Made by a program: the position numbers and the translations under genes
Notes under the pieces: generated by a model
What the model saw: the letters and a program-made list of their open reading frames with translations, nothing else
The model's database searches: none
Told to the model about the DNA's origin: nothing
In this document: positions 1,708-16,484 of the stretch, piece after piece
How the letters are laid out: the number at the start of each line of letters is the position of its first letter
How positions within the stretch are numbered: position 1 is the stretch's first letter
Source of the DNA: a virus
IMG/VR virus record: IMGVR_UViG_3300028030_000056
Coordinates: 1-25,236 of that record
Direction: 5' to 3' (one strand)
DNA: 25,236 bases

Positions 1708-2259
1708 TTAATCAAGTTTTCTTACGAGTTCAGCGTGAAGTTCGAGCTGAGCTAATACTTTTCTCCAGACCGGAGCTGCGCTGTAGTCAAATATATTGGC
1801 ACGAAAGTTTTGAGCCGTGTGCATAATGCGATCAATGGCTGAATGCGTGGAAGTGCTTTTGCGTACAATAGTCTCTAGAAGCACCATATCCAATTCGGTA
1901 TCTTTGAGGGCTGCGTAATCGGGATGATCAGAGAGCATCCAACGTCTATTCATCAATGTAGTATAAATCTTATTCTCTATGGTGAGGTGATCAATGTGAA
2001 GCTTGTCTGTGATATCTCTGTCATCTCCGTACATAGTGGAGCTGATAAGTACTATATCAAAATTGAGTTGTGCCTTTTGGATTTGTTCCGGAATAGTCTC
2101 CCAATTGATAGGATGAAACTTGATGTATGCTGAGGGTGTGGCTCTGACGAAATCATCTCCTTGTTGATTGTATTGGTTAAGATCTAGATCCACTAAGACG
2201 AGCTCATCTATGTCATCAGTTAGTTTTTTCTGAAGTACCATATATATTTCTCTAATCAT
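1708..2259 (-). CDS. Putative tail terminator / gp37-like protein
   Basis: This is a soluble protein of 183 residues. The opening (MIREIYMVLQKKLTDDIDEL) followed by 'VDLDLNQYNQQGDDFVRATPSAYIKF' and a stretch of beta strands (FDIVLISSTMYG) is the arrangement of phage tail terminator or completion proteins that cap the tail tube and join it to the head. The second half is helical (residues about 95-183), which is longer than the typical 130-150-residue terminators. It overlaps the preceding gpG/gp10-like gene by 4 bp (ATGA), so the two are translationally coupled, and that neighbour supports a neck or tail-completion role. The assignment is based on gene order and pattern; sequence similarity to Mu gp37 was not tested. 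Confidence 0.5.
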   Translation of the reverse strand: MIREIYMVLQKKLTDDIDELVLVDLDLNQYNQQGDDFVRATPSAYIKFHPINWETIPEQIQKAQLNFDIVLISSTMYGDDRDITDKLHIDHLTIENKIYTTLMNRRWMLSDHPDYAALKDTELDMVLLETIVRKSTSTHSAIDRIMHTAQNFRANIFDYSAAPVWRKVLAQLELHAELVRKLD

Positions 2260-2675
2260 AATCGGGAGGAGTTAAATATGTTGTCAATTTCATCATAGAT
2301 CATATCTTCAATCTTTTGTTCCAGTACTTGAGAAGAGCCCATAAATTGGCGTTGTGGAGGTCTGCCCTCTATGCTACCACCATCATTGTGAAACTTTGCA
2401 TAAGACACATCATTGTACACTTCAATGATAGAACCTTTGACATCGTAGTCTATTCCTCTTCTCATATGCCCGGTCACTACCAGTGGTCTGAGTTTGGGCT
2501 TCTTGGTTTTGCGATCAATGACAGGTTTCCATTTGGATAGTTTGCGGTCTGTAAATCCTTTGTCTGTAAAAGACTTGTCAAAATGCTGTACAGCCATAGC
2601 TCCTGCGAGTACAGGAAATTTGTCGTTGAGGAAGTTCCGGAGATCTTCGGATTGTCGAAGAAAAATGTTAGTCAT
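2256..2675 (-). CDS. gpG/gp10-like virion morphogenesis (tail completion) protein
   Basis: This 139-residue protein has the hallmarks of the phage virion morphogenesis family (Mu gpG, P2 gpS): an N-terminal helix bearing 'VQHFDKSF', a basic central 'WKPVIDRKTKKPKLRPL', 'VTGHMRRGI', then 'VYNDVSYAKFHNDGG' and 'PPQRQFMG' near the C-terminus. The 'YAxFHNxG ... RQFxG' signature is characteristic of the family. Such proteins act at the head-tail joint or tail terminator. The gene is separated from the MuF gene by 177 bp containing two promoters and a short RNA, and it is the first gene after the minus-direction -7 box at 2725-2732, so it may be expressed from its own promoter. It overlaps the next gene by 4 bp. 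Confidence 0.75.
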   Translation of the reverse strand: MTNIFLRQSEDLRNFLNDKFPVLAGAMAVQHFDKSFTDKGFTDRKLSKWKPVIDRKTKKPKLRPLVVTGHMRRGIDYDVKGSIIEVYNDVSYAKFHNDGGSIEGRPPQRQFMGSSQVLEQKIEDMIYDEIDNIFNSSRL

Positions 2676-2751: not shown

Positions 2752-2782
2752 TTGCATATTAATTATAAAATGTATATCTTTG
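2752..2782 (+). promoter_or_regulatory. Consensus Bacteroidota promoter for a short RNA
   Basis: TTG at 2752-2754 is followed after exactly 20 bp by TATCTTTG at 2775-2782, matching the TTG-N(about 20)-TAnnTTTG consensus. Start of transcription is expected near 2788, at the base of the hairpin. No plus-strand coding region follows; the next plus-strand feature is the hairpin and T-run. Confidence 0.75.
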
Positions 2783-2787
2783 CATTG

Positions 2788-2849
2788 TAAGGGAGTACCT
2801 CGCGGAACGTGTAAAGGTTCGCGGTAGTGAGTAACCCTTATTTTTTTTT
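2788..2849 (+). ncRNA. Candidate structured small RNA ending in an intrinsic terminator
   Basis: The transcript predicted from the promoter at 2752-2782 is about 62 nt. An outer stem pairs TAAGGG (2788-2793) with CCCTTA (2835-2840) and is followed by nine T (2841-2849), a complete intrinsic terminator. Inside is a GC-rich hairpin in which CGCG-g-AAC (2801-2808, one bulged G) pairs with GTTCGCG (2817-2823) around an 8-nt loop. Almost the whole RNA is paired and no ORF fits. It runs opposite to the flanking head genes, stopping 3 bp short of the MuF stop codon. The sequence is more GC-rich than its surroundings. No known RNA family is recognised by eye. Confidence 0.6.
2835..2849 (+). terminator. 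Intrinsic terminator, U9 tract
   Basis: The 3' arm CCCTTA of the outer stem is followed by nine T. It works only in the plus direction: on the minus strand the same stem is followed by ACAATGC, with no T-run, so it should not stop head-operon transcription. Confidence 0.65.
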
Positions 2850-2852
2850 ACC

Positions 2853-3983
2853 TTATTTTATACTATCTGTAATGGCGTGTAGTTTGTATTGTCCTGAAGC
2901 CATTTCCGCTATGTTGATAAAGGAACTAATGCCGTCAATAATCACTTCATAATATAACCATTGCTTTATTTGTGCTCTTCCTTTTTCCTCCGGGACTGAT
3001 TTTATAAATTTTGCAATAGGGAAGTAATGCTCTAAGCTATCTAGTAAGTCCATTCTGATCAGTCTATCTTTGTGAGGTTTGCGCAGAATAGATTTGACAG
3101 CTTTATTAGTCATCTTGAAAGTTACATTTTTATTGGTAAATGATTTGCCTACCAAAGCTTCTTTTGCTTTAATTCTGAAATCATCTGATACGATTCTTAT
3201 CATACTATTTTCGATTTTCTTTTTTACAGATTCTTTTGCCTCAATAAAATAAGGATGTCGTTCATTCCAGACCTTTCCTGTTTTTCCGGGATTGGTACGA
3301 AAAGCAGGAGGCATTTGTTTGGTGTCCGGATAACCTTCAGGATCTTTCTCGGTAGCTTCAGCGTGTTGAAGAACATAGCATCTGCATCCCCAACCATTTG
3401 GAGGATAGTATGTGTCCCAAAATGGATCATCCACTTTCTTGATAGTGCCATTGAGCAACTCGTGAGAGCGTCTCACTCTATCATCTTCTTGAGTTTTGTA
3501 TTCGAGCCAGGGGAGTATGTCTTTGCGCTTTTCAATCTTAAGCCATTTGTCAGCCATTTGAGCACTTGCTTTTGCAGTATTGTATTCAGTCTTGAGCCAA
3601 TTGACATTGTAATCTTTGTCAATCTTGAGAGCTGCTTTTTTGAATTTGGGCCATGAGCGGAGTTTTCCGTTTGGATCTTTGAGTTCGTTTACCACTTGAG
3701 CTATATTTGAATGAGACTTGAATGCGATAAATGTAAATGTATTTCGTCTCATACGTTGCATCAATTGCATTCTGCCGTCTCTGAAGGAAGCGTTTGTCAT
3801 AGTGGTATTGAAGCCCTCCTCTATACCTTTGATCAATTGATTGGCATTGGTATGAAAGGTATCAGGATCTATTGATCCGTCTGCTTTGAGCTTTCGGTCA
3901 AATATCTTTTTGAGATATGCGATAGTACGATCTACAAAACCTAATACATTGACAATAACATTGTCTCCATAATAAGCAAGCAT
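2853..3983 (-). CDS. MuF-like minor head protein with possible C-terminal nuclease domain
   Basis: The protein has 376 residues from the ATG at 3983 (a TTG one codon earlier is unlikely in this group). Numbered from the TTG, residues about 15-160 form a helical head-morphogenesis region. The MuF core lies at about 158-206: 'LEYKTQEDDRVRRSHELLNG', then 'PFWDTYYPPNGWGCRCYV', with the D-x-RVR-x-xH and PPNxWxCRC signatures. MuF proteins bind the portal and are packaged as minor capsid proteins. Residues about 250-377 form a separate domain (FTNKNVTFKMTNKAVKSIL, 'QWLYYEVIIDG', 'YKLHAITDSIK') resembling the phage-associated barnase/EndoU/ColicinE5/RelE-type (BECR fold) domains often fused to MuF. 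That fold call is inferred. The gene follows the portal gene by 14 bp across a slip-prone A10 tract. Confidence 0.85.
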   Translation of the reverse strand: MLAYYGDNVIVNVLGFVDRTIAYLKKIFDRKLKADGSIDPDTFHTNANQLIKGIEEGFNTTMTNASFRDGRMQLMQRMRRNTFTFIAFKSHSNIAQVVNELKDPNGKLRSWPKFKKAALKIDKDYNVNWLKTEYNTAKASAQMADKWLKIEKRKDILPWLEYKTQEDDRVRRSHELLNGTIKKVDDPFWDTYYPPNGWGCRCYVLQHAEATEKDPEGYPDTKQMPPAFRTNPGKTGKVWNERHPYFIEAKESVKKKIENSMIRIVSDDFRIKAKEALVGKSFTNKNVTFKMTNKAVKSILRKPHKDRLIRMDLLDSLEHYFPIAKFIKSVPEEKGRAQIKQWLYYEVIIDGISSFINIAEMASGQYKLHAITDSIK

Positions 3984-3984
3984 C

Positions 3985-4012
3985 AAGTCATTAAGACTTA
4001 GCTTTTTTTTTT
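3985..4012 (-). promoter_or_regulatory. Possible -1 slippage site joining portal and MuF
   Basis: On the minus strand ten A (4012-4003) cover the last lysine codons of the portal gene. After a short spacer a 5-bp hairpin (AAGTC at 3999-3995 with GACTT at 3989-3985) follows and includes part of the portal stop. The frame one base back is stopped just upstream of the A-run but open from it (AAG CTA AGT CTT AAT GAC TTG ATG) straight into MuF. Transcript slippage or -1 frameshifting would fuse the two proteins. The hairpin is weak and no experiment backs this. Confidence 0.35.
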
Positions 4013-5143
4013 AGGTTCAGGTTCAGGTTTTTGTTTTGGAGTAGTCTCTTCGTCCTCTTCCATCAGATCAATGAATTTGAATTCAGCATCTGTCAAAGGA
4101 TATCCTCTTTTGATTAAGAACGGAAACAATACTTCATTTATATGGTATTGGATTCTGCGCATACGTGCAAGCGTGTAGGCATTGAGAATACGTTCGTGAA
4201 CCTCAGCAGATCCTACATAAGCCTTTTCGTCTGAAGTAGAAGTTTGTCCATTGATAAGCATCGCAATACCCTCATCAATGTATTTGATCAAGTCCTTGAA
4301 TGATACGTGACCGTACCCTTGACTAGTGGGTTCTTTGAGATCTATCTCATCTTCATCATCTAGGATAGCCCACATATTTGATCCAAAGTTTTCGAGCATC
4401 CGGGCTTTCTCTGCTATCTCCTTTTCGTCTCTGGTAGCTGTCTTAGCAATGACAAAAGGTAGTCCAAAGCGTTCATTTCTCCTACTCCAATCAAGGACAC
4501 TGTAATCTTTGCGTATAACCTGTTTGGATAACGGTAGGAGCAAACCAAGATCATCCGGGCGTCCTATCTCTACTAAGTATTTGGATAGAGCTCCTTTGTC
4601 GTAAGGCAGTCCATTTATGTCAGTAGTATTGATAACTACTTGTTTGACCTCCGGTCTGACGTGCTCTCTTGGTATGAGATCAATGGAGTCGAATAGTCCG
4701 TCTTCAGTATTGACATAAAATTCTATGAGGCTATGTCCATACAGTTCTGTATCCACACAATATTGCATATAATTATTGAACCAAGGTTTCTCCAGTAGGT
4801 CGTGAAGATCTTCATTCTCTTTGCCATTGTGCTCTATGATGAAACCTGCCAGTTGTACAGTGAATCTGGCAGTACGCACTTGTGTCAATAGTCTATCATC
4901 TTCCATTGCGACTTCATATAGTGCATAGAGCAATTCTCTTCTCGGTCTGTAAGGATCTTTTGCTTGAGCTTTTGCAAGTCTCCAGGTACGCATTTTGAGA
5001 TCTATATTATAGACCCTTTTTTTGACTCTTGTTTTGAGAGATCTTTTTTTGCTGTGAGAGGGAGCTTTTAATTTAAGCCCGGGGTCGTCATCCGGAGTAG
5101 TGACCACAAAGAGACTTTTTAACGTATTTAATATATTTGCCAT
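3998..5143 (-). CDS. Portal protein (DUF935 / Mu gp29-like)
   Basis: This protein has 381 residues. The portal core runs from about residue 70 to 345: 'LLYALYEVAMEDDRLLTQVRTA', the region around 'YGHSLIEFYVN' and 'LIPREHVRPE', and the DUF935 signature 'MLINGQTSTSDEKAYVGSAEVH' split over residues 295-316. Portal rings form the unique vertex through which DNA is packaged and to which the neck binds. It is shorter than the roughly 500 residues common for this family; the tail is missing and replaced by an acidic then Pro/Lys-rich end (residues 362-381) encoded by the A10 tract. It lies between the gp36-like and MuF genes; the usual Mu order has the portal directly after the large terminase. Confidence 0.9.
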   Translation of the reverse strand: MANILNTLKSLFVVTTPDDDPGLKLKAPSHSKKRSLKTRVKKRVYNIDLKMRTWRLAKAQAKDPYRPRRELLYALYEVAMEDDRLLTQVRTARFTVQLAGFIIEHNGKENEDLHDLLEKPWFNNYMQYCVDTELYGHSLIEFYVNTEDGLFDSIDLIPREHVRPEVKQVVINTTDINGLPYDKGALSKYLVEIGRPDDLGLLLPLSKQVIRKDYSVLDWSRRNERFGLPFVIAKTATRDEKEIAEKARMLENFGSNMWAILDDEDEIDLKEPTSQGYGHVSFKDLIKYIDEGIAMLINGQTSTSDEKAYVGSAEVHERILNAYTLARMRRIQYHINEVLFPFLIKRGYPLTDAEFKFIDLMEEDEETTPKQKPEPEPKKKS

Positions 5144-11531: not shown

Positions 11532-14500
11532 ATGAAAGTAATTAAGTTTTGGTTATTAATAATGTTGGGTCTGGTACTGACTGCCTCTCTGAAGGGGCAG
11601 ATCAGACCGGATGATTTTCCTTTGGAGGCAAACCCTGATTCTACTAATTTTGAAGTTTACTCTCAAAAAGGAGGTCAGATCAAAAGAGCAAATCTATTTG
11701 CCTTAAAAAAGTACTATGCTCCATTTATTAAGAGTGTAGGATTTGTTCCTTCAGCTACCGGTAATAGTTCACACCTGGCAGAGTTTGTTGAAGCTCCTAA
11801 TGGTAAGGTCTATTATATAGATGGTAAAGGAAATAGTGTTCAGGTGTTTGGAACTCAAGATATACATACTGATGCTACACTATCCGGAGATGGTACAAGT
11901 GGAAGCCCTCTTCACGTAGAAGGAGAACTTACAGACGATCAAAATCTATCGGATGGAGGTCGTTCCGGAACTATACAAAATGTAAATATTGAAGATGGAA
12001 CGGGTGTGTCATTTGATGTGGCTGACAATGATAATGACCCTGAGAATGAACTTCAAACCATTAGCAAAGATCCCAATACTAGAATAGTAACACTGTCGAA
12101 TAGTGGAGGTACATTTGTTGATGAGGTTGATGATATTGATAATGACACACTCAATGAAATTCAAGACTTGGCAATAGATACACTGACTGATAGTTTGTCT
12201 ATTACTCAAGGCAATAAGGTCTATCTGGGTTACTTGATGGGTCGTGATAGTCAAAAACTGACCCTAGTAAATGATACCCTTGGTATAGAGAATGGAAACT
12301 TCGTATATTTAGGGTATCTGATAGGTAGAGATAGTCAGCAGATACATATAGTAAATGATACATTGTGGATTGACAATGGTAATGGAGTACCAATTTCTAA
12401 CTTTGACAAACAATCTCTTAGGTACATAAGCAAACAAAATGAGATTGTGAACATAGGAATAGAGCGAGGTGATTCCATTTATATCAATGTCAATGATGCA
12501 GATAGCAGTGTGATTAACGAATTGCAGGATCTTACCTTTAATGAGACAACTGACAGCTTACATATACAGTACGGCAATACAGTATATCTTGGATCTCTAA
12601 AAGGAGATAATCAAGACTTGTCAGACGGAGGACGGTCCGGGACAAATCAGACTATTAATATCTCCGGGGGAAATGGTGTAGTGGTAGATGTAGCAGACAA
12701 TGACAATGACCCTACTAATGAATATCAATCACTAAGTGTATCCGGGAACAATCTGACAATCTCAAATGGCAATACTGTAACTCTTGATCCCAATGACGCT
12801 GACAGTAATCCATTAAACGAACTTCAAAATCTTAGTCTATCCGGTACGGTATTGTGTATATCCGGAGGTAATTGTATCACATTGCCTTCAGGTGATGGTT
12901 CTGGAGGAGGTGGAGATAATTGGGGGACGGATTCTGTCGTCAGTGACAGCACTATGACAGGCAATGGTACAGCTGCGGATACATTGAGAGTCAATTTGGC
13001 TCTTTCGGTTTTTCAGGCTCAAAATCTAAACTACAATAGTTCTACCAATGAACTATCCATTGACCGAGGAAATACAGTTACACTCAATCCCAATGACGCA
13101 GACTCTGATCCTAGTAACGAGCTTCAGACTATAGGTAAGTCCGGATCTACCGTTACCCTTAGTAATGGAGGAGGCTCATATACTGATGAAGTGAATGATG
13201 CAGACTCTGATCCCAATAATGAAATAGAGACAGCTAGTAATATAGGTACAGGAGCTGAAGTATATAAGCAAAAGACAGGTTCTAATTTTGAATTCAGGAA
13301 ATTGACATCAAGTGACGGTTCTGTCACTATTACTCAAAATGCAGACGATATCAATCTACAAGCTAGTTCCGGAGGAGGAGGAGACAACTGGGGAACTCAA
13401 GTAGTTCAGACAGATGCTTCACTTACCGGTGATGGTACAGCTGCTAATAAGCTCAAGGTAGATCCTATTACTGTCAATACATTTAACGACACTCATCAAT
13501 TTCATCTACCGGATGCACTTGGTAATACGATTGCATTCAAAGGGATAGGAGACATAAGTGTCACTACTCCAAGTAATGGAAGTCACGTTATCGAATTTGA
13601 GTACACCGGAAGTGGCGGAGGTGGTGGTGATGATTGGGGGACTCAGGTAGTGCAGACCAATGGAGGACTTACCGGAGACGGTACAAGTGGAAATCCATTG
13701 GCAGCTATAGATCAAAGTGCAACCAATGAAGACAATACAGCCAGTAATTTAGGCAGTGGAGCAAATGTATATAAGCAAAAGTCCGGATTAGATTTACAGT
13801 TTCGTACATTGACCAGTTCAGATGCTTCAGTAACCATAACAGAAAATGCAAATGAAATAGACCTTAAGGCTACAGGATCAGGCGGAGGCGACAATTGGGG
13901 AAGCCAGGTCGTACAGACTGATGGAACGCTTACAGGAGATGGAACGAGCGGAAATCCATTGCACGCTGTCGGATCAGGAGGAGACGATTGGGGTAGTCAA
14001 GTTGCTCAAGTGGGTTCAGGAATTACCGGAGATGGTACAAGTGGAAACCCATTGACGGCTGTGGACGCAAGTACTACAAACGAGATTGAGACCGCTAGTA
14101 ATATAGGAGGCTACGCTCAAATATATAAGGAGAAAGTTGGTCACGATCTAAGATTCAAGACACTAAGATCTTCTGATGCCTCAGTAACCATAACAGAAAA
14201 TGCAGATCATATAGACCTCAAATCAACAGGATCAGGCGGAGGCGATAATTGGGGAAGCCAGGTAGTACAGACTGATGCTACACTTACCGGAGACGGTACA
14301 GCAGGAAGTCCATTGCACTCTGTCGGGTCAGGAGACGATTGGGGAAGTCAGGTCGTACAGACCAATGGAGGACTTACCGGAGACGGTACGAGTGGAAGTC
14401 CATTGACCGCTGTAGATGCAAGTACTACAAACGAGCTTCAGACTATAAGTAAGTCCGGATCTACTGTCACTCTTAGTAATGGAGGAGGCTCATATACTGA

Positions 14501-16484
14501 TGAAGTAAATGATGCAGATGCAGATCCTTCCAATGAAGATAATACAGCCAGTAATTTAGGCAGTGGAGCAAATGTATATAAGCAAAAGTCCGGATTGGAT
14601 TTACAGTTTCGTACATTGACCAGTTCAGATGCTTCAGTAACCATCACAGAAAATGCAAATGAAATAGACCTCAAGGCTACAGGATCAGGAGGAGGCGACA
14701 ATTGGGGAAGCCAGGTCGTACAGACTGATGGAACACTTACCGGAGACGGTACAGCAGGGAGTCCTTTGAGTGCAGTAGGAAGTGATGACGGAGATTGGGT
14801 TGTGTCCGGAAATAATATGAATACGGGAGTTAGTGGGAATGTAGGGATAGGTCTTTTGCCTACTTATAAGTTGGATGTTGATGGAGTTATTAGATCAAAT
14901 AAAAGAATTATTCTTGACAATGGAGGAAGAAGTATTTATATTGGAAATGGAGCTGGATTATATGAAGATGGTGCTGATCGACGAAATGTAGGTATAGGGT
15001 ATTATTCTTTGAAGAATAATCATTCAGCTTATTATAATGTTGCTGTGGGTATGTATAGCTTACTTAATGATACTTCAGGGGTATCAAATACCGCATTGGG
15101 ATTTTATTCCCTTCGCGAAAGTTTATCCGGAAGTAATAATGTGGCTATTGGTAGAGAATCGGGCTTAAACACCACTACAGGATCTAATAATACAATAATA
15201 GGAGCTTATTCGGGAAAATATATGGAAGGCAATAATAATGTTTTTATAGGGTATTTTTCTGGATACAATGCGATAGGAAATCATAAATTGTATATTGAGA
15301 CTTCAGCTTCTAATACTCCCCTGATTTACGGAGAATTCGACAATGATCTACTCCGTATCAACGGCAATCTCCAAGTCCGTGATGTTTCTACAGACAATAC
15401 CCTTACCAATCTACTCGTCATTGACGGTACTAGCAAGGAAATAAAATCTCGTGCAATCTCGAGTATAGATGTCAATGACGCAGACTCTGATCCTACAAAC
15501 GAGCTTCAGACGATAAGTAAGTCCGGATCTACTGTTACTCTTAGTAATGGAGGAGGCTCATTTACTGATGAAGTGAATGATGCAGATGCAGATCCAAACA
15601 ATGAAATACAAAACCTAGATCAGGTTACTACACAAGGCAATACTACTACTAATGATGTCACTATAGGAAATTTGATTGTACAGAAGGTAGGAGCTTCTAT
15701 AACGCTTGATAATAATTCAGGAGCACCCGGTAAATGGAAGATGTTTATTGATGATAGTAATGATGAATTATTCTTACAACCAAAATACGCAAATAGTACA
15801 CGGTATTATATTAAAGCTCAAAGCGGTAATACTATTTATTCGTACAACACAGTGACAGGAGCAACTGATTTTACTAATTCTTCAGGTGTAGGTGCTGTAG
15901 GCATTAGTCCTGCTAATTATAGGGTTTCAGTCAATAATTCTAGTAATCAGCAATCAATTACGCTATATGGAGATACAAGACAAATAAAATTAGGTACGGA
16001 CTATGGAAGCCCCAACGAGGTGATGATGGTCAATGCCTCTAATGAGTTGGAATATGTAGATCCGCGTAATTTCTTAGCTAAAATACTCGGAACAACAGGC
16101 AATTACAATCTTACAAGTTCCTGGACTGTGATCCCATTTGGAAACGATCCAATAAATTCCGGACAATTTACTTTTGATGATGCTAATGATAAACTGGAAT
16201 ATAATGCATCAGGAACTTATCAGACTTGTTTCGAGGGAGTAGTTGAATATTCAGGATCATCTAGTACTGATATTGAGTTCAAAATAGAATACAATGGTTC
16301 AGCTACTATCACTCCAACATATATACATTCAATTCACGACTTCGATGCATCCAATGAGGAGAAAGTATATGTAAACTTTTGTAATGAAAGATATTGCAGT
16401 TCTGGGCACTATGTTCGTGTAAAAGGAAAAGGTGTAGATAGTCATCTGACTTATTATAAATTAACAACTGAAAAAATCTACTAA
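11532..16484 (+). CDS. Giant secreted repeat fibre / adhesin-like protein
   Basis: This 1650-residue protein starts with a clear signal peptide (residues 1-23, 'KFWLLIMLGLVLTASLKGQ'), rare for virion proteins. Residues 108-1085 carry nine copies of a 'WG(S/T)QVVQTDxxLTGDGT' type unit (near 108, 464, 620, 702, 789, 820, 907, 937, 1058) and Asp-rich 'DADSDPxNELQTI' units (near 168, 322, 420, 520, 557, 995, 1315, 1350) that may bind calcium. Residues 1102-1250 are a left-handed-type region with 'NVGIG', 'SNNVAIGRESG' and 'GNNNVFIGYFSG' repeats, as in YadA-like heads and Bacteroidota tail-fibre domains. The last 140 residues are beta-rich with cysteines 1566, 1617 and 1622 and could be a C1q-like tip. 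It sits between sheath and tube genes. It may be a phage fibre or a surface adhesin. Confidence 0.75.
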   Translation: MKVIKFWLLIMLGLVLTASLKGQIRPDDFPLEANPDSTNFEVYSQKGGQIKRANLFALKKYYAPFIKSVGFVPSATGNSSHLAEFVEAPNGKVYYIDGKGNSVQVFGTQDIHTDATLSGDGTSGSPLHVEGELTDDQNLSDGGRSGTIQNVNIEDGTGVSFDVADNDNDPENELQTISKDPNTRIVTLSNSGGTFVDEVDDIDNDTLNEIQDLAIDTLTDSLSITQGNKVYLGYLMGRDSQKLTLVNDTLGIENGNFVYLGYLIGRDSQQIHIVNDTLWIDNGNGVPISNFDKQSLRYISKQNEIVNIGIERGDSIYINVNDADSSVINELQDLTFNETTDSLHIQYGNTVYLGSLKGDNQDLSDGGRSGTNQTINISGGNGVVVDVADNDNDPTNEYQSLSVSGNNLTISNGNTVTLDPNDADSNPLNELQNLSLSGTVLCISGGNCITLPSGDGSGGGGDNWGTDSVVSDSTMTGNGTAADTLRVNLALSVFQAQNLNYNSSTNELSIDRGNTVTLNPNDADSDPSNELQTIGKSGSTVTLSNGGGSYTDEVNDADSDPNNEIETASNIGTGAEVYKQKTGSNFEFRKLTSSDGSVTITQNADDINLQASSGGGGDNWGTQVVQTDASLTGDGTAANKLKVDPITVNTFNDTHQFHLPDALGNTIAFKGIGDISVTTPSNGSHVIEFEYTGSGGGGGDDWGTQVVQTNGGLTGDGTSGNPLAAIDQSATNEDNTASNLGSGANVYKQKSGLDLQFRTLTSSDASVTITENANEIDLKATGSGGGDNWGSQVVQTDGTLTGDGTSGNPLHAVGSGGDDWGSQVAQVGSGITGDGTSGNPLTAVDASTTNEIETASNIGGYAQIYKEKVGHDLRFKTLRSSDASVTITENADHIDLKSTGSGGGDNWGSQVVQTDATLTGDGTAGSPLHSVGSGDDWGSQVVQTNGGLTGDGTSGSPLTAVDASTTNELQTISKSGSTVTLSNGGGSYTDEVNDADADPSNEDNTASNLGSGANVYKQKSGLDLQFRTLTSSDASVTITENANEIDLKATGSGGGDNWGSQVVQTDGTLTGDGTAGSPLSAVGSDDGDWVVSGNNMNTGVSGNVGIGLLPTYKLDVDGVIRSNKRIILDNGGRSIYIGNGAGLYEDGADRRNVGIGYYSLKNNHSAYYNVAVGMYSLLNDTSGVSNTALGFYSLRESLSGSNNVAIGRESGLNTTTGSNNTIIGAYSGKYMEGNNNVFIGYFSGYNAIGNHKLYIETSASNTPLIYGEFDNDLLRINGNLQVRDVSTDNTLTNLLVIDGTSKEIKSRAISSIDVNDADSDPTNELQTISKSGSTVTLSNGGGSFTDEVNDADADPNNEIQNLDQVTTQGNTTTNDVTIGNLIVQKVGASITLDNNSGAPGKWKMFIDDSNDELFLQPKYANSTRYYIKAQSGNTIYSYNTVTGATDFTNSSGVGAVGISPANYRVSVNNSSNQQSITLYGDTRQIKLGTDYGSPNEVMMVNASNELEYVDPRNFLAKILGTTGNYNLTSSWTVIPFGNDPINSGQFTFDDANDKLEYNASGTYQTCFEGVVEYSGSSSTDIEFKIEYNGSATITPTYIHSIHDFDASNEEKVYVNFCNERYCSSGHYVRVKGKGVDSHLTYYKLTTEKIY
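13725..13927 (+). repeat. 203-bp direct repeat inside the fibre gene, copy 1
   Basis: Bases 13725-13927 recur at 14532-14734, 807 bp later, with about five differences, mostly at third codon positions. The copies encode residues 732-799 and 1001-1068, identical in protein. Homologous recombination between them would delete or duplicate 269 codons in frame. Confidence 0.9.
14532..14734 (+). repeat. 203-bp direct repeat inside the fibre gene, copy 2
   Basis: This is the second copy of the repeat starting at 13725, in frame. It lies directly before the end of the repeat region and the transition to the 'NVGIG' head-like region. Confidence 0.9.

Follow-up and report, generated by a model that had tools for sequence, protein, structure and literature searches.

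A 25,236-base virus record (IMG/VR IMGVR_UViG_3300028030_000056, positions 1 to 25,236; this whole stretch is called the window below) carries a small RNA gene that runs against its Mu-like head genes and ends beside gpF, a MuF-domain minor head protein. Comparison of related loci demonstrates that this RNA is coupled to a toxin domain at the C-terminus of gpF. On the strength of sequence comparisons, we consider it likely that the RNA serves a phage MuF polymorphic toxin as its immunity (antitoxin) gene, and that this toxin is a tRNase neutralized by substrate mimicry.

In the mechanism that we propose, gpF bears a predicted tRNA-cleaving C-terminal RNase, is presumably packaged in the virion, and would be delivered together with the DNA. 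The RNA would be transcribed on the opposite strand from a promoter of its own and, by displaying a look-alike of a tRNA anticodon arm (a U-G-U/C-A loop, as in tRNA-Tyr and tRNA-Cys), would occupy the RNase active site as a substrate mimic, such that the tRNAs of the phage-producing cell would be spared. With its own opposing promoter, the RNA could be expressed in lysogens, in which the late head operon is silent, and the toxin domain and the RNA would travel between phages as one cassette. Transcription, tRNase activity, binding of the RNA to the toxin, neutralization, and injection are all steps that we infer. The RNA is tied to the toxin domain and moves with that domain, and in the family to which the window belongs it copies an anticodon arm. 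An RNA antidote acting by substrate mimicry would be the simplest mechanism.

The RNA gene of the window

The RNA gene and the toxin-bearing gene that it abuts are laid out as follows.

2752..2782, plus strand: Bacteroidota-type promoter of the RNA gene, TTG-N20-TATCTTTG, read directly from the sequence (TTG at 2752–2754, TATCTTTG at 2775–2782)
2787..2849, plus strand: RNA gene of ~62 nt, start approximate, from sequence, folding, and syntenic RNAs in relatives
2787–2793/2835–2841, plus strand: outer stem of the RNA, from folding
2805..2820, plus strand: anticodon-arm-like hairpin GAAC-GTGTAAAG-GTTC; the inner part of the RNA can fold in two ways, and this is one of them
2810–2813, plus strand: apical UGUA in the inner stem, from folding
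2841–2849, plus strand: U9 terminator run, read directly from the sequence
2853..3986, minus strand: gpF, MuF-domain minor head protein with a C-terminal toxin domain (Pfam Phage_Mu_F, 5.6e-15)
2853..3185, minus strand: predicted RNase (LPD3/BECR-like) toxin domain, about residues 268–377 of gpF, from the family alignment, an AlphaFold2 model, structure matches, and LPD3 in relatives

The head genes of the window, all on the minus strand, comprise small and large terminase, a Mu portal, gpF, and a gpG-like gene. Between the gpF stop (2853) and the gpG-like start (2675) lies a gap of 177 nt in which the RNA gene occupies the opposite strand, its 3′ end falling 3 nt short of the stop of the opposing gpF. 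A preliminary description of this DNA had proposed a promoter, a hairpin RNA, and a U9 run at this place, against the head genes, and had held that no open reading frame (ORF) fits; each of these elements was found as claimed, and no convincing ORF is present in the gap. Its phrase "almost fully paired" overstated the structure, which consists of an outer stem and an imperfect inner stem, although the RNA is indeed structured and contains a hairpin. An Rfam family match, which the same description suggested looking for, did not emerge for the window RNA, nor did ARAGORN report a tRNA.

Taken alone, the evidence for an RNA from the window is modest. The promoter pattern occurs seven times in its 25 kb, and the predicted fold is moderately better than that of shuffled sequences (z = −1.0 for a 121-nt region and −2.3 for the 67-nt RNA). 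The case rests on comparison with relatives.

The RNA accompanies gpF proteins with a toxin domain

Relatives of gpF were gathered from viral contigs and bacterial genome contigs, and removal of near-duplicates left 108 distinct loci. A strict rule for the RNA demanded a Bacteroidota promoter on the opposite strand, 25–140 nt from the gpF stop, and then a U-run near that stop. By this rule, the RNA is found in none of the 26 loci whose gpF ends shortly after the MuF domain versus 39 of the 82 whose gpF has a long C-terminal extension (Fisher p = 1.1e-6). In most of the RNA-bearing, toxin-bearing relatives the promoter lies +48 to +79 nt from the gpF stop. After a toxin-free gpF the next gene usually follows immediately (median next start 0), whereas the median gap is 92 nt where the RNA is present. 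A count of opposite-strand ORFs gave no useful separation of the locus classes.

The same arrangement occurs at 3 of 377 other gene ends in these loci, which served as the control, and the comparison supports the earlier claim of a promoter-driven, structured, terminated small RNA directed against the head genes. That a promoter and a hairpin or terminator arose by chance in an AT-rich gap, as the weak statistics within the window alone might suggest, is barely credible because it is contradicted by recurrence at a fixed position in 39 distinct relatives and by the covariation reported below. What the preliminary description overlooked was the toxin domain at the end of the neighboring head gene and the tie between the RNA and that domain.

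The RNA also sorts by toxin type, since a toxin domain can be recognized in many of the C-terminal extensions. Two RNase-type clusters, CdiA_C-like and LPD3-like, carry it in 35 of 51 loci by the strict rule and in 40 of 51 by a looser one. The Pfam CdiA_C model scores above its cut-off in the RNA-bearing loci L019, L022, L122, L163, L117, and L083, as does LPD3 in L006, L095, and L107. Peptidase-type clusters have the RNA in none of 11 loci by the strict rule, and the looser rule adds one zincin match (L041); these clusters are eight zincin loci with HExxH and three papain-like loci with NCQTC, and their assignment to peptidases from these motifs is our own. At 4339–4638 (minus strand) of Bacteroides phage p00, a hankyphage (L035), a MuF gene has the papain-like NCQTC motif in its C-terminus, and the slot there holds the gene of an opposite-strand hypothetical protein, a candidate for protein immunity. 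Screening 395 Bacteroidota genomes added one strong new case (L249) and some weak ones, and a DNA similarity search with the RNA region returned nothing beyond the window.

Phages are known to use tRNAs to evade tRNA-cleaving defenses (PMC11555353), and the RNA could by analogy be a tRNA-like decoy against host anticodon nucleases that has nothing to do with gpF. This is quite improbable, given that the RNA is absent from all 26 loci whose gpF lacks a toxin domain, that its loop motif varies with the toxin family, and that RNA and toxin are replaced as a pair.

The RNA gene is genuine but does not encode an ordinary regulatory small RNA (sRNA). An antisense or trans-acting regulator of the head operon would be suggested by its position antisense to the gpF–gpG intergenic region. 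However, the RNA ends 3 nt before the gpF stop and does not overlap coding sequence, its stem sequences differ wholly between relatives while pairing is kept, and it is missing with toxin-free gpF, which together make such a regulator highly improbable. Among the roles first proposed for the RNA, a base-pairing sRNA and a packaging or structural RNA found no support, and the "decoy" option came nearest. Three candidates were ruled out: an operon terminator, since there is no U-run on the operon strand; a type I antisense antitoxin, since the RNA ends at 2849 and the gpF ORF at 2853, with no pairing to the coding or leader region; and a packaging RNA, since toxin-free relatives lack it.

The toxin domain and the RNA body are exchanged together

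Comparisons between near-identical phages show that the toxin domain and the RNA body are swapped together while the promoter is kept. The DNA of L026 and L027 is near-identical up to the start of the toxin and divergent through the toxin and the RNA body; the match resumes at the RNA 5′ end and continues through a sigma-70-type promoter into gpG. For the Bacteroidota pair L178 and L181, identity is 75–97% in the core, 23–47% across toxin and RNA, and 85–97% in the promoter and next gene. L164 and L170 agree in the core and over some of the promoter region and differ in the rest. Such coupled replacement is the hallmark of polymorphic toxin–immunity pairs.

Association and joint exchange are also what an obligate RNA partner of any kind would show, such as a ribonucleoprotein component that assists the folding of the toxin domain, its loading into the capsid, or its guidance to the target without being an antidote. 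We judge this unlikely: immunity is the more usual setting both for substrate-like loops that match the type of toxin and for several RNAs in tandem, and an opposite-strand promoter of its own fits expression apart from the late operon.

RNAs of LPD3-type toxins resemble anticodon arms

RNAs of the toxin family of the window are built alike: the outer stem is long and wholly different in sequence from one RNA to the next, and it is followed by an internal loop and a short inner stem, which is capped by an apical loop that is often 7 nt long (in relatives, for example, CTGTAGA, TTGTAGT, and TTGCAAA). In bacterial tRNAs, U33-G34-Y35-A36 denotes tRNA-Tyr (GUA) or tRNA-Cys (GCA). When the motif was scored in the predicted apical loop, with two flanking bases allowed, UGUA or UGCA was present in 13 of 19 RNAs of LPD3-type toxins versus 1 of 30 RNAs of other toxins, and in 8% of dinucleotide shuffles (p = 9e-11); of the three loop 4-mers that are commonest in the LPD3-type RNAs, two are TGTA and TGCA. 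In the host genome that contains L121, the tRNA-Tyr loop is CTGTAAA and the tRNA-Cys loop CTGCAAC, and this tRNA-Cys has GTGGTCTGCAAC in common with the RNA of L003. Two anticodon-arm-like RNAs, one with the loop TTATAGT and the other with TTGCAGT, lie in tandem downstream of gpF in L249 (stop 2058).

The compensatory stem changes that had been suggested as a check were found in the inner stems of the RNAs of relatives. In 12 gapless inner hairpins, 96.7% of cells are paired and there are 12 double-sided changes; covariation is 0.63 versus 0.20 when shuffled, with none of 500 shuffles as high, for stem boundaries chosen by hand, and falls to 0.285 or less in a slid control, which is the fairer one.

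The CdiA_C-type RNAs of L122, L123, L147, L163, L167, and L074 carry a distinct motif, close to CGCGAGTAAC...TCAAG, which in several lies inside a TGTAA/TTACA stem and is possibly another RNA mimic. ARAGORN and Rfam were negative for the relatives L026 and L027 as well, and Rfam down to E = 1 was negative for L202, L205, L208, and L209.

The C-terminal domain of gpF is predicted to be an RNase

The C-terminus of the window gpF is predicted to be a tRNA-cleaving RNase. An AlphaFold2 model of the domain, built on 16 alignment rows, has pLDDT >90 over most of its length, and its matches among viral structures (BFVD) are LPD3 domains, with E down to 5e-6. In the VIA comparison with solved structures, the top-ranking rows are RNase toxins of the BECR/RelE type, namely BrnT, MqsR, and two CDI toxins, with low scores (Z 4.2–5.0). 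The BECR fold combines a helix with a four-stranded sheet. Pfam identifies LPD3 in the relatives L095 (8e-14) and L107 (1.7e-6). A phmmer search of the PDB found no relative, the top Foldseek matches against the PDB were weak NTF2-like ones, and diversity within the C-terminal family alignment defeated a pattern scan.

Several observations weigh against our proposal of an RNA antidote for a tRNase. On the protein side, the LPD3 score of the window domain (0.0022) is below the Pfam cut-off, its matches to solved RNases are weak (Z 3.3–5.0), and the candidates for the PBECR catalytic His and Ser/Thr (KPH and AITD in the window) are not invariant across the family. With regard to the RNA, the minimum-energy fold in the window pairs CGTG with CGCG and thereby partly pairs the anticodon-like loop, which is itself 8 nt long; in 6 of the 19 LPD3-type RNAs the predicted loop has no UGYA; and RNAs of CdiA_C-type toxins are unlike anticodon arms. 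Approximately one-third of the RNase-type toxins have no detected RNA by the strict rule. Finally, independent toxin/no-toxin pairs on the core tree point in the expected direction wherever they are informative (~4 of 9 pairs) but are too few for significance (median p 0.125).

RNA genes in proteobacterial relatives

RNAs of ~75–103 nt occupy the slot in Pasteurella phage AFS-2018a and in isolate phages akin to L026; the phylum of the isolate phages is assigned by their resemblance to Mu-like phages of Pasteurella and other Proteobacteria. Several of these RNAs fold as cloverleaves and several have TTCGAAT or a similar T-loop, and the ones tested are missed by tRNA models. Downstream of gpF in L201 (stop 4452), two different tRNA-like RNAs stand in tandem, its own and a second one like that of L205, an arrangement that resembles orphan immunity genes. 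In a Klebsiella Mu-like phage, gpF overlaps gpG and leaves no room for an RNA. We lean toward the broader view that RNA immunity genes form a whole class spread over phages of Bacteroidota and Proteobacteria, and that each would mimic the RNA target of its partner toxin and be exchanged with it as a cassette.

Pasteurella phage AFS-2018a (L278) has an unannotated tRNA-like RNA gene at ~2490–2566 on the minus strand, with a sigma-70-type promoter, between its head morphogenesis and virion morphogenesis genes, and would be a good experimental model.

Relation to known systems

MuF polymorphic toxins of temperate phages have been described with protein immunity (Jamet et al. 2017, PMC5576092; Bxa/Bsi/BAH, PMC11699363). 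Like those toxins (PMC5576092), the window gpF has a MuF head-protein N-terminus and a variable, exchangeable C-terminal toxin domain, with protection expected just downstream; unlike them, its slot holds an opposite-strand RNA gene rather than a small immunity ORF. The window, a 25-kb virus fragment with Mu-like genes, may come from a temperate phage; relatives occur inside bacterial genome contigs. Searches of the literature outside bioRxiv and most subscription papers turned up protein immunity for MuF toxins but no account of RNA immunity for any polymorphic toxin.

RNA antitoxins that neutralize RNases are known from type III systems (PMC5086642, PMC8860590). The principle in ToxIN, CptIN, and TenpIN, a structured RNA neutralizing an endoribonuclease toxin, would be the same if the inhibition that we propose is confirmed. 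Type III antitoxins are tandem repeats, co-directional with and upstream of the toxin, whereas the RNA here is a single non-repeated unit on the opposite strand, downstream of the toxin, with its own promoter; the toxins here are BECR- or CdiA_C-type domains on a virion protein, and a tRNA-like loop replaces the repeat/pseudoknot. The colicin E5/D and CdiA toxins are BECR-type tRNases, as is predicted for the domain here, with protein immunity there and apparently RNA immunity here. Colicin E5 targets U-G-U in anticodon loops. MuF-PBECR fusions appear as predicted RNases in passages of Iyer et al. 2017 (PMC5512222), which guess at PBECR targets and call the function of LPD domains elusive. The window domain matches LPD3 in sequence (weakly) and in fold; those passages mention no partner RNA.

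Phages that make MuF RNase toxins but have no obvious immunity protein must somehow survive, and this would be a concrete answer, one that is widespread and testable in cultured phages. If it is true, RNA antitoxins would extend from type III systems to virion-delivered polymorphic toxins, giving a polymorphic toxin–immunity system with RNA as the immunity factor. Since each antidote seems to be a copy of what its toxin attacks, the RNA sequence would then predict the tRNA that is cut (here Tyr or Cys), and immunity genes would have been overlooked wherever the search was for proteins only.

Other features of the window

2256..2675, minus strand: gpG-like virion morphogenesis gene, which bounds the RNA slot (Pfam Phage_tail_S, 0.00044, below cut-off)

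The preliminary description also noted a separate box facing the opposite way. A TATCTTTG box facing the gpG-like gene is present at 2716–2740 on the minus strand, without a well-placed TTG, and is a possible separate gpG promoter. Farther along, a gene at 11532–16484 encodes a 1650-aa repetitive virion or tail protein with many near-identical repeats.
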